DNA of 64,000 nt from an uncultured Geobacter sp. Lineage in GTDB: Bacteria > Desulfobacterota > Desulfuromonadia > Geobacterales > CAIOGM01. Numbering within the stretch: the first letter of the stretch is position 1; every line of letters begins with the position of its first letter. This document shows, one piece after another, positions 47,738-51,465 of this stretch. The notes under the pieces were generated by a model. That model ran no database searches. It was not told the origin of the DNA and saw nothing but the letters and a program-made list of their open reading frames with translations. The DNA is taken from assembly GCA_903857795.1 (NCBI GenBank), contig CAIOGM010000153.1, positions 1-64,000 on the forward strand, given 5' to 3'. Made by a program: the position numbers and the translations under genes.

Positions 47738-50527
47738 CTACCCGGTGTTTCGCAGCCCCGCGGCGATGCCGTTGATGGTGGCTGCCAGGGTGTAGTTGAG
47801 GTCGTCGCTCTCCTCGCCGGAACGTTTGCGCCTCAGGAGCTCCACCTGGATCAGGCTCAAGGGGTCCACGTAGGGGTTTCTCAGGCTGATGGAGCGGGCC
47901 AGGGCAGGATTACTCTCCATGAGACGCTGCTGGCCGGTGATCTCCAGTACCATCTTCCTGGTCCTCTGGTACTCCTGGGTCACCATGCCGAAGACCCGTT
48001 CCCGGAGCGCCTCGTCGGTCACCAGCCCGGCATAGAGCCGGGCGATGGGGAGGTCGACCTTGGTGAGGGCCAGCTCCACGTTCCGGATCAGGTCGTAGAA
48101 GAAGGGGAACCGCCGCATCATGCTCCCCAGCAGCTCCCGTTGCGCTTCCCCCCGGGAGGCGAACCGCTCCAGGGCGGAGCCGACGCCGAACCAGCCGGGG
48201 ATCACATGCCGGCTCTGCATCCAGCCGAACCCCCAGGGGATGGCCCGGAGATCTCCGAGCCCTCTGGCCTGTCCCCGCCGGGCCGGCCGGGAGCCGATCT
48301 TGGCCAGGTCGAACTCCTGTACCGGCGTCGCCTGCTCGAAGTAGGGGATGATGTCCGGATTCTCGGCGATCCGCTCCCGATAGAAGTCGAAGGCCCACCC
48401 GGACATCTCCTCCAGCGCCTCCTCCCACCGCACCTCCGGCCTGGTCTCAACGAGCCCTGTGTTGGCCAGAGCCTCCAGGGATGCGGCCACCATCAGCTCC
48501 AGGTTGCGCACCGCCAGGGCCGGGTCCGAATACTTCCAGTTGATCACCTCCCCCTGTTCGGTCAGCTTGAAGGAGCCGCTGAAGGCGCCGAAGGGCTGGG
48601 CGATAATGGCCCGGTGGGTCGGCCCCCCCCCACGCCCCACGGTCCCTCCCCGACCATGGAAGAGGGTCAGGGTGACGCCGCACTCCGCCGCCACCTGGTG
48701 GAGCGCCCGGTGAGCCTTGAAAATCTCCCATGAACTGGTGAGCATCCCCCCATCCTTGTTGGAGTCCGAGTAGCCGAGCATCACCTCCTGCCTCCGCCCC
48801 CATGAATCCAGGAGGGGGAGATAGGAGGGGGAGTTCCAGAGGGAACGGCAGATCTCCGGCGCGTTGCGCAGGTCTTCGATGGACTCGAAGAGCGGCGCCG
48901 GCATGAGCCCCGGATCACGGCCGTCGGGAGAGGCGGCGCAGTTTACCCCGCAGAGCCCGGCCAGCCAGAGGAGGTTCCGGACGTCATCGGCGGCGGTGGC
49001 GCCGCTGATCACATAGCTCCTGATCGCCTCCGGGTACCGCTTCTTCAACCGCGCCACCTCCCTAAGCGTGGTGAGGAGCTCGATGGTGGCTGCAGAAGGA
49101 AGTGGCGGGATCCGGTCGGGGGTGTCGGCAGTTACCCCGGCGGCCAGCTCCCGGACAGCCGCGGCATGGAGTGCGGCGTGCTGACGGATATCCAGGGCGT
49201 GGAGATGGAACCCGAAGGTCGCCACCTGGCGCAGCAGCGGGTCGATGAGCTGGCGGGCCATCCGTTCCCCGTCGTGGCTCGCCAGGCTCGCCCGGATCAT
49301 GAGGAGATCGGCATTGAACGCCTCCGGCCCCGGGTAGGCTGCGGGGAGGAGATGATCGCTGCCGGCGGCCCGAAGCCGGTGAAGGACGTACTCCAGAAGC
49401 CGCCGGTAGAGCTCGCAGTCGGGGTGGGCCAGCGCCACCGGGCTCACCTCTGGCATGAGCTCCTCGTATCGGGTCAGGAGCGCCGGAATAGCCGGATCGA
49501 TCCCCCGCTGACAGGAGGAGGTGGTGAGCAGCTCCTGCAGCTCCTCCACCCGCTCCCGGTAGAGCCCCAGGATCGTCTCCCGGGCCAGGGCCACGGCCGT
49601 CCCCGTGGAGGCCGCCGTGACAAAAGGGTTCCCGTCCCGGTCGCCGCCGATCCAGGAGCCGAACCTGAGGAGCGTGGGGAGCTCCCGGGGTGCCAGTTCC
49701 CGGCCATAGAGCTGACCGAAGGCCTCGGCGATCTCCTCGTAGAGGGCGGGAAGCGGCCCGACCAGGCAGCCGGGGTAGTGGTCCAGCCCCATCCGGATCT
49801 CGTCGTCCACCGTCGGCTTGCGGCGCCGGACCTCGTCGGTCTGCCAGAGGGCAGACACCTCGGCCAGAATCTCCTGCTGCCTCCGGGACGCCTCGTCATC
49901 GGTGAGGGGGAGCCGGTCCAGGAGCTCCAGGTTCCTGGCGATCCGGCGCCGCTTGAAGAGCGCCACCCGCCGGGTTACCTCCGTGGGGTGGGCGGTAAAG
50001 ACCGGTCGCGCCTCGATTCGCCCCAGGAGAGCCAGTGCCTCATCGGCGCCGATCCCGGCGTCCCGCATCCTCAGCAGCGTCCCCCGGATGGAGCCGGGCT
50101 TGTCGTGAATTCCCCGATTCAGGCGGGTGGCGCGCTGCCGGCGGCGGCGATGGTTGGTCTCGGCCAGGTTGGTCAGTTCGAAGTAGGTGGCAAAAGCTTT
50201 GACGATCTGGAATGCCTCCCCCACTGTCATCTGACCGACGATGCCGACCCCCCGCTCCTGGAGCTCCTGCTCTCCGGGGAAGTCCAGGCACGCCTCCCCC
50301 TGATGATCGTTCAGCTGTCGGTGGCGGATGGCCAGGCGGCGCAGCTCTTCCTCCGCGTCGAAGACCTTTTGTCCTGCCTGCTCCAGGATAACCTCTCCCA
50401 GCAGGTAGCCCAATGAGCGGACATCACGCCGCAGTGGCAGCTCCCGGTCCGCCTCGCTTACTCCGGTCAACTCCGCAAGCCGTTTCACTTGGTTCTCCAC
50501 CCGCCAGTACCATATCCTCTCAGCCAT
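47738..50527 (-). CDS. ppc: Phosphoenolpyruvate carboxylase
   Basis: 929 residues, usual length. Catalytic His in VFTAHPTEVTRR and catalytic motif GYSDSNKDGGMLTSSW; the GRGGTVGRGGGP loop and the conserved end SLRNPYVDPLSLIQVELL with final NTG are all present. It carboxylates PEP to oxaloacetate to replenish the TCA cycle, or runs a biosynthetic entry in acetate-grown cells. No regulator beside it. Single-gene unit, convergent with the CFI-box gene. Confidence 0.97.
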   Translation of the reverse strand: MAERIWYWRVENQVKRLAELTGVSEADRELPLRRDVRSLGYLLGEVILEQAGQKVFDAEEELRRLAIRHRQLNDHQGEACLDFPGEQELQERGVGIVGQMTVGEAFQIVKAFATYFELTNLAETNHRRRRQRATRLNRGIHDKPGSIRGTLLRMRDAGIGADEALALLGRIEARPVFTAHPTEVTRRVALFKRRRIARNLELLDRLPLTDDEASRRQQEILAEVSALWQTDEVRRRKPTVDDEIRMGLDHYPGCLVGPLPALYEEIAEAFGQLYGRELAPRELPTLLRFGSWIGGDRDGNPFVTAASTGTAVALARETILGLYRERVEELQELLTTSSCQRGIDPAIPALLTRYEELMPEVSPVALAHPDCELYRRLLEYVLHRLRAAGSDHLLPAAYPGPEAFNADLLMIRASLASHDGERMARQLIDPLLRQVATFGFHLHALDIRQHAALHAAAVRELAAGVTADTPDRIPPLPSAATIELLTTLREVARLKKRYPEAIRSYVISGATAADDVRNLLWLAGLCGVNCAASPDGRDPGLMPAPLFESIEDLRNAPEICRSLWNSPSYLPLLDSWGRRQEVMLGYSDSNKDGGMLTSSWEIFKAHRALHQVAAECGVTLTLFHGRGGTVGRGGGPTHRAIIAQPFGAFSGSFKLTEQGEVINWKYSDPALAVRNLELMVAASLEALANTGLVETRPEVRWEEALEEMSGWAFDFYRERIAENPDIIPYFEQATPVQEFDLAKIGSRPARRGQARGLGDLRAIPWGFGWMQSRHVIPGWFGVGSALERFASRGEAQRELLGSMMRRFPFFYDLIRNVELALTKVDLPIARLYAGLVTDEALRERVFGMVTQEYQRTRKMVLEITGQQRLMESNPALARSISLRNPYVDPLSLIQVELLRRKRSGEESDDLNYTLAATINGIAAGLRNTG

Positions 50528-50630: not shown

Positions 50631-51287
50631 TTACCGGATACACAACCCATCGACGGTCAGCGCCCCATTCTCGACCACCACCCCCTGCAGCAGGGTCAGA
50701 CCGCTGGTCGAGACATACGCCTCGTCGTATCCCCCTCTGAGAGTGATCTCCAGGGGGCGGGCCAGACGCAGCACTTCCGTAAGGGCCCCCGCCTGGGCCA
50801 TGATGGTGTCGCCGCTCCGGGTCGCCGGGTCGCTGTAGGCGTCCATGACCAGCGGGTAACCCCGGCCGCTCTCCAGGAGCATGACCGGGAGTCCGGACGC
50901 TCCCGTAGGAAGGGATGATGGCGCAAGGCTCCTGCTCACCTCGTTGGAGTAGCCGCTCTCATTCCCGGCGCTGTCATAATCGGTGACGGCAAAATAATAG
51001 GTAACACCGTCGGTAAGATTGCTCAGCGAATAGGTTGTGGCGCTCCCCACGTCAATGGAGGCGGAGTAGCTACCTGATCCTCTCCCCAGGTGGAGCCGGT
51101 AGCCGCTGATTCCGGTAAAAGGAGATCCGTCGGCATTGAGCGGCGGGTTCCACGTCAACGTCACCTCTCCCCCTCTGCTCTCCCCCGGGAGAGGAGGGAG
51201 CAGGAGAAGGGTCACGGCCAGTATCAGGAGCAGCGGGCGCAAACGGCGGCAAACGGACAGATACTCTTCCCTGCAGGGTGTTTCCAT
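50631..51287 (-). CDS. Exported fibronectin type III domain protein, under riboswitch control
   Basis: 218 residues from the ATG at 51287 (GGGGAGGA upstream). Signal peptide RRLRPLLLILAVTLLLLPP. Residues about 40-130 are one fibronectin type III domain (VTLTWNPPLNADGSPFTGIS, YRLHLGRGSGSY, YYFAVTDYDSAGNESGYSN). The C-terminal part has IMAQAGALTEVLRLARPLEI, LRGGYDEAYVS and LTLLQGVVVENGALTVDG, a beta-rich module I associate with Geobacter extracellular proteins. Preceded by a GEMM-type riboswitch with a terminator. A surface or matrix role is inferred, not shown. Confidence 0.72.
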   Translation of the reverse strand: METPCREEYLSVCRRLRPLLLILAVTLLLLPPLPGESRGGEVTLTWNPPLNADGSPFTGISGYRLHLGRGSGSYSASIDVGSATTYSLSNLTDGVTYYFAVTDYDSAGNESGYSNEVSRSLAPSSLPTGASGLPVMLLESGRGYPLVMDAYSDPATRSGDTIMAQAGALTEVLRLARPLEITLRGGYDEAYVSTSGLTLLQGVVVENGALTVDGLCIR

Positions 51288-51344: not shown

Positions 51345-51465
51345 AAAAAACAGCCGGGCCACCGAAAATATCTCGTGCGATATTTCGGCAACCCGGCTGT
51401 CTCTGGGAGACCCTGTAGGCTTTCCGCCCCATCCTCGCGGATGGTTTAGTATTATCGTGTACCGT
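51345..51465 (-). promoter_or_regulatory. GEMM-Ib-type riboswitch, probable 3',3'-cGAMP sensor, with intrinsic terminator
   Basis: Read on the minus strand from about 51460: TAATACTAAACCATCC, a GCGA tetraloop closing CCATCC/GGATGG, then GGGGCGGAAAGCC, the P3 stem GTCTC/GAGAC and AGCCGGGTTGCCGAAATATC. This is the GEMM-I aptamer layout and is nearly identical to what I recall for the Geobacter 3',3'-cGAMP riboswitch used in crystal structures. The aptamer 3' arm is shared with a terminator: CAGCCGGG pairs with CCCGGCTG around an inner long stem, followed by six T. Ligand binding would therefore set read-through into the exported protein gene. The cGAMP rather than c-di-GMP call is inference. 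Confidence 0.88.

Follow-up and report, generated by a model that had tools for sequence, protein, structure and literature searches.

Position 20 of the GEMM-I aptamer (Vc2 numbering) contacts the ligand. The substitution A20G in the cGAMP switch of Gmet_0970 results in selectivity for c-di-GMP (PMC6456294), and in Desulfobacca, the presence of A or G at this position served as the discriminator and was probed (PMC9481103). In the pilM cGAMP switch, the terminator captures C75 of the aptamer (PMC9262584), and RNA-seq of Geobacter sulfurreducens indicated that deletion of gacA lowers all GEMM-Ib genes (PMC6456294). In addition to GacA, a second cGAMP synthase is found in this species: GSU1937, a HAMP protein with Ser and a GGDDF motif (PMC8835794). 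Genes for fibronectin type III (FN3) proteins are also reported behind GEMM aptamers, namely Gbem_1796/1798/1799 in G. bemidjiensis (PMC2996986) and KN400_1971 in G. sulfurreducens, whose leader mutated over 17 years on electrodes (PMC13194489). Since these two reports already describe GEMM control of Geobacter FN3 genes, the case analyzed here is less novel in that respect.

The search of the window, i.e., the entire 64-kb stretch of DNA analyzed in this study, detected no RNA family besides RF01051 (c-di-GMP-I/GEMM-I) at the gathering thresholds of Rfam 15. The match is on the minus strand at 51460–51384 and scored 46.3 bits (gathering score, 35), with an E-value of 6.8e-6 over the entire window. 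The original prediction had placed a GEMM-I aptamer on this strand and had named a covariance model search as a means of checking it; every motif that it quoted was found there, and the match exceeds the gathering score. The minus strand from 51465 to 51343 reads ACACGATAATACTAAACCATCCGCGAGGATGGGGCGGAAAGCCTACAGGGTCTCCCAGAGACAGCCGGGTTGCCGAA and then ATATCGCACGAGATATTTTCGGTGGCCCGGCTGTTTTTT, and the predicted span of 51345–51465 corresponds to the aptamer together with its terminator. In the cmscan alignment, G11 of the model, which was equated with G20 of Vc2, is aligned with an A in the window aptamer. The comparison of the ligand-specificity position, also proposed originally, therefore yielded the residue published for the cGAMP type. 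In an alignment of 32 relatives with A20, compensatory changes were found in the P2 stem and the scaffold was nearly invariant, and the pocket positions that are invariant in the relatives are all intact in the window aptamer.

The leader has a simple layout. A sigma-70-like promoter (TTGACA-18-TATGGT, 51525–51496, minus strand), identified by a consensus scan only with 10 of 12 matches, lies upstream of the aptamer. The 3' arm of the aptamer, GAGACAGCCGGGTTGCCGAAATATC, is at the same time the 5' half of the helix of an intrinsic terminator (51403–51343, minus strand). When this 61-nt segment was folded alone, it formed a near-continuous helix that starts inside P3 and takes up the entire 3' arm, followed by six T at 51350–51345, as the original prediction had described. 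The free energy of the hairpin was −39.0 kcal/mol, compared with −15.1 ± 2.7 kcal/mol for shuffled sequences (z = −8.7), and none of the 200 shuffles was equally stable. The terminator was correctly predicted to precede the ribosome-binding site, but the spacing of 60 bases was not correct, because the T run and the Shine-Dalgarno (SD) sequence GGGGAGG (51298–51292, minus strand, read directly) are separated by ~46 nt. A second aptamer was considered for the window leader and rejected, this interval being merely ~46 nt long. The start codon of the FN3 gene is the ATG at 51287.

Both folds, aptamer and terminator, are retained by the 32 A20 relatives, and the terminator pairs 63–69/108–114 and 78–82/94–98 are kept in 27–32 of the 32 aligned sequences. 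Because the 3' arm is common to the two structures and these pairs are conserved, an ON switch acting by antitermination is expected; the competition between the terminator and the 3' arm was found in the structures, and the ON direction is the predicted outcome. Minimum free energy (MFE) folding of the window leader without ligand favored the terminator, as expected, and the effect of a ligand is invisible to such folding. In the absence of ligand, the 3' arm, including the ligand-pairing C, would join the strong terminator, and transcription would end at ~51345. cGAMP produced by one or more Hypr GGDEF enzymes of the genome would bind at the P1/P2/P3 junction and keep the 3' arm in the aptamer, so that the terminator could not form and RNA polymerase would continue into the FN3 gene. 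This direction agrees with the RNA-seq results for the gacA deletion in G. sulfurreducens. The terminator helix of the window is longer and more stable than that of most relatives, and such a helix (−39 kcal/mol) might keep the gene nearly silent at any ligand level, which would make the leader a degenerate, non-switching one. We consider this highly improbable, because the binding pocket described above, the promoter, the SD sequence, and the open reading frame are all intact, and a stem of similar length (−33.2 kcal/mol for a partial segment) precedes a cytochrome gene in another leader of this genome, that of C150.

We also examined the other GEMM-I aptamers of the same genome. Reading by eye assigned three of its eight GEMM-I aptamers to the A20 type and five to the G20 type. 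The A20 signature ACTAAACC is shared by the aptamers of the window, C150, and C29; C150 precedes the gene of a cytochrome c lipoprotein, and C29 that of an NHL-repeat exported protein. The G20 aptamers are C143, C2, C140, C73, and C87, the last of which is built on a GEMM-Ib-like scaffold. In the alignment, rows G049–G069 (A20) and own_C73 (G20) were assigned by eye from their 5' sequences, in which the AAACC anchor is divergent. The C87 aptamer (L139, 4383–4457) is located just after a GGDEF gene and has a terminator-like T run; with G at position 20, it may represent a GEMM-Ib scaffold that senses c-di-GMP.

The genome also encodes both known types of cGAMP synthase, recognized as GGDEF proteins in which Ser replaces Asp at the base-contacting position. 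The first, L019, is a REC...GGDEF protein with GHRIGS (Ser348) and GGDEY, and by far its best match in the PDB is the Hypr GGDEF structure 6d9m (203.8 bits; next match, 105). The second, L025, is a HAMP-GGDDF protein with GYVPAS and fits the description of GSU1937. The presence of these synthases and of an A20 aptamer in one genome suggests that the source and the receiver of the signal are likely both present. The same genome encodes many GGDEF proteins of the canonical kind, which have Asp at the base-contacting position, so c-di-GMP is certainly available as well. Furthermore, sensitivity to both dinucleotides has been reported for the omcST leader of G. sulfurreducens (PMC6456294), and membership in the Geobacter GEMM-I set is therefore no guarantee of strict selectivity. 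A20 could accordingly be permissive rather than enforcing, and in vivo, as with omcST, the window aptamer could be promiscuous or respond chiefly to c-di-GMP. This alternative appears unlikely, given that A20 occurs on a scaffold nearly invariant among the A20 members, that both synthase types are present, and that a paralogous FN3 gene has its own G20 switch, i.e., the genome separates the two types. The assignment of 3',3'-cGAMP as the ligand is well supported by inference from A20, the GacA-type Hypr GGDEF protein, and the conserved, mutually exclusive folds, in line with the GEMM-Ib reading originally proposed. Taken together, the locus is very probably a GEMM-Ib ON switch for 3',3'-cGAMP that controls the gene of a small exported FN3 protein.

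This gene (50631–51287, minus strand, stop codon included) encodes 218 amino acids with a signal-peptide-like N-terminus, in keeping with the prediction of an exported protein behind the switch, and a single FN3 domain (Pfam fn3, 29.1 bits, residues 41–118). A Foldseek search with the predicted structure (AlphaFold mean pLDDT, 87.5) returned FN3 domains and weak matches to beta-helix polygalacturonases. The 218 residues contain no haem motif (CXXCH), and an electron-transfer product such as a multihaem cytochrome is not supported. The original placement of the target in a surface electron-transfer regulon was thus unsupported by an FN3 protein that has no CXXCH motif and carries an undescribed C-terminal domain; the same features make a function at the surface or in the matrix more likely, and the product is probably a component of the cell surface or matrix and not an electron carrier. 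On sequence grounds, the window element is a well-formed GEMM-Ib member with a putative non-cytochrome surface protein as its target. The C-terminal domain (50634–50897, minus strand; ~88 residues) had no match in Pfam and no meaningful match in NCBIfam, and follows the pattern ..AY..A..G..I...E.L.L....T..GGYD......G.T...G.LTV..G.LTVDRL.IR-stop. It is a recurrent C-terminal element of exported proteins in the Geobacterales: it was found in 35 of the 58 Geobacterales genomes searched (G000–G057), with 18 copies in the genome of the window and 47 in G040, and was located at the exact C-terminus in all 38 proteins checked. We regard it as a candidate domain for sorting or anchoring. A PEP carboxylase gene (47738–50527; Pfam PEPcase) follows the FN3 gene on the same strand, 104 bp downstream. 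A weak terminator-like site is present between the two genes (50613–50596), and PEP carboxylase is possibly co-transcribed with the FN3 gene under the riboswitch.

The relatives of this gene were also compared. No ortholog of the exact window gene was found among three genomes of the same genus, in which the FN3 half alone matches (53–54%). A close paralog in the same genome, on contig C143, shares 54% identity over the FN3 part. The aptamer immediately upstream of it has the highest score of all GEMM-I aptamers in the genome (77.9 bits) and is of the canonical c-di-GMP type, with G20; a divergent argH-like gene at this locus leaves no space for a second aptamer. When 141 Geobacterales genomes were searched with an FN3 relative, matches were obtained in 32 (E of 1e-15 or better), and most of the FN3 genes from these genomes have a GEMM-I aptamer in the leader. 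Upstream of the FN3 genes in G001, G003, G018, and G012, no GEMM match was obtained with Rfam, and nothing aptamer-like was seen on reading. The FN3 proteins of L057 (3947–4846), L146 (8938–9867), and L056 (2596–3492), which lie behind two A20 switches, have a dockerin-like C-terminus (the Pfam Dockerin_1 match in L057 was just below the cut-off), and their genes adjoin genes of HD-GYP-like and CRP-type regulators.

Ten leaders (G004, G007, G015, G048, G126, G038, G084, G075, G080, and G062) combine a G20 aptamer, placed nearest to the FN3 gene, with one or two upstream A20 aptamers that have a terminator each. Pattern scans identified five more mixed leaders (G021:C26, G024:C32, G009:C1, G133:C11, and G080:C63), of which three lie before genes of FN3-like proteins; the proteins encoded behind all five have a signal-peptide-like start. 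The A20-then-G20 arrangement thus occurs in at least 15 leaders from 14 genomes besides that of the window and from three GTDB families, a lower bound set by the search patterns. A20 is always upstream; the scan patterns require the A20 type first, so the Rfam scans of the FN3 leaders are the only independent test of the order. Distal A20 and proximal G20 aptamers with differing expression platforms before FN3 proteins were observed at L056 3604–3950, L057 4961–5320, and L145 4928–5400, and the same arrangement was seen in L146, L162, L166, L169, L175, L179, and L184; the L056 leader is that of Geomobilimonas luticola. In the G035 leader, three aptamers have A20 and a further, variant one has C20. 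In a leader with four aptamers, the proximal position is taken by a C20 aptamer, which has neither A nor G at position 20 (L168 1280–1371/L062 3789–3880).

The expression platform of the G20 aptamer is of two kinds. In the SD-type leaders, it has no terminator, and an anti-SD segment is able to pair with the SD sequence in all 13 sequences. The predicted SD accessibility was matched by at most 2 of 100 shuffles in 9 of the 13, and the SD-sequestering hairpin is the MFE structure in nearly all cases. A second hairpin, which would incorporate the 3' strand of P1 and bury the anti-SD segment, is possible before the SD sequence is transcribed and was only weakly better than shuffles. P1 prevents this second hairpin, which in turn prevents SD sequestration, so c-di-GMP binding is predicted to favor the OFF state; this direction comes from the topology, the energies alone being weak. 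Ligand-free folding was dropped as a proof of switching in the SD-type leaders, since the SD hairpin was the MFE structure nearly everywhere and its competitor was weak relative to shuffles. In G021, G024, G009, and G133, the G20 platform resembles a terminator when read by eye (CTGTTTC...GAAACAG...CTGTTTC) and is therefore probably an ON platform. Most of the mixed tandems accordingly look like "cGAMP AND NOT c-di-GMP" gates, and we infer "cGAMP AND c-di-GMP" logic for the four terminator-type leaders. A broader reading, for and against which we see the chances as evenly balanced, is that the exported FN3 proteins of Geobacterales integrate the two messengers through distal A20 antitermination and a proximal G20 platform (SD, AND NOT; terminator, AND), the genome of the window having split these inputs between two FN3 paralogs, with just an A20 switch at the window gene and just a G20 switch at C143.

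The pairing of cGAMP-type and c-di-GMP-type switches before one gene appears to be undescribed. A mixed tandem is absent from Table 2 of a 2022 survey of tandem riboswitches (PMC9481103), an earlier account elsewhere being possible, and a 2025 survey handles c-di-GMP tandems as same-ligand (PMC12452182). The gene family points to natural mixed-ligand GEMM-I tandems, which are counted as same-ligand doublets by surveys that use the single Rfam model RF01051. In G. sulfurreducens, cGAMP and c-di-GMP favor opposite kinds of extracellular electron transfer (PMC6456294), and with a single leader RNA reading both, this antagonism could be tested directly in a reporter assay. With these results, the cGAMP/Hypr pathway also covers a lineage of Geobacterales that does not belong to the family of the named Geobacter genomes, and the targets of cGAMP switches would include non-cytochrome surface proteins. 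We see most of the value in the undescribed C-terminal domain and in the two-messenger pattern of the FN3 gene family, the window switch itself being of moderate interest.

In known tandem-riboswitch logic gates (PMC9481103; PMC12452182), as in the relatives, two switches are arranged in series in one leader, whereas the window contains one. In the relatives, an aptamer of the cGAMP type is combined with one of the c-di-GMP type, and such pairs are not set apart from same-ligand c-di-GMP tandems in PMC12452182. Similar to Gbem_1796/1798/1799 (PMC2996986) and KN400_1971 (PMC13194489), an FN3 surface-type protein is encoded behind a GEMM riboswitch; in the relevant passages of these reports, cGAMP and c-di-GMP types are not separated and mixed tandems are unmentioned. 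The locus most closely resembles the GEMM-Ib switches of Geobacter (pgcA GSU1761, Gmet_0970, and pilM) in its aptamer fold, its A20, a terminator that uses the 3' arm, an exported or surface target, and a Hypr GGDEF protein in the genome. In contrast to these systems, its target is a short, haem-free FN3 protein, and its host belongs to GTDB family f1, whereas the named Geobacter and Geobacteraceae genomes belong to f2.
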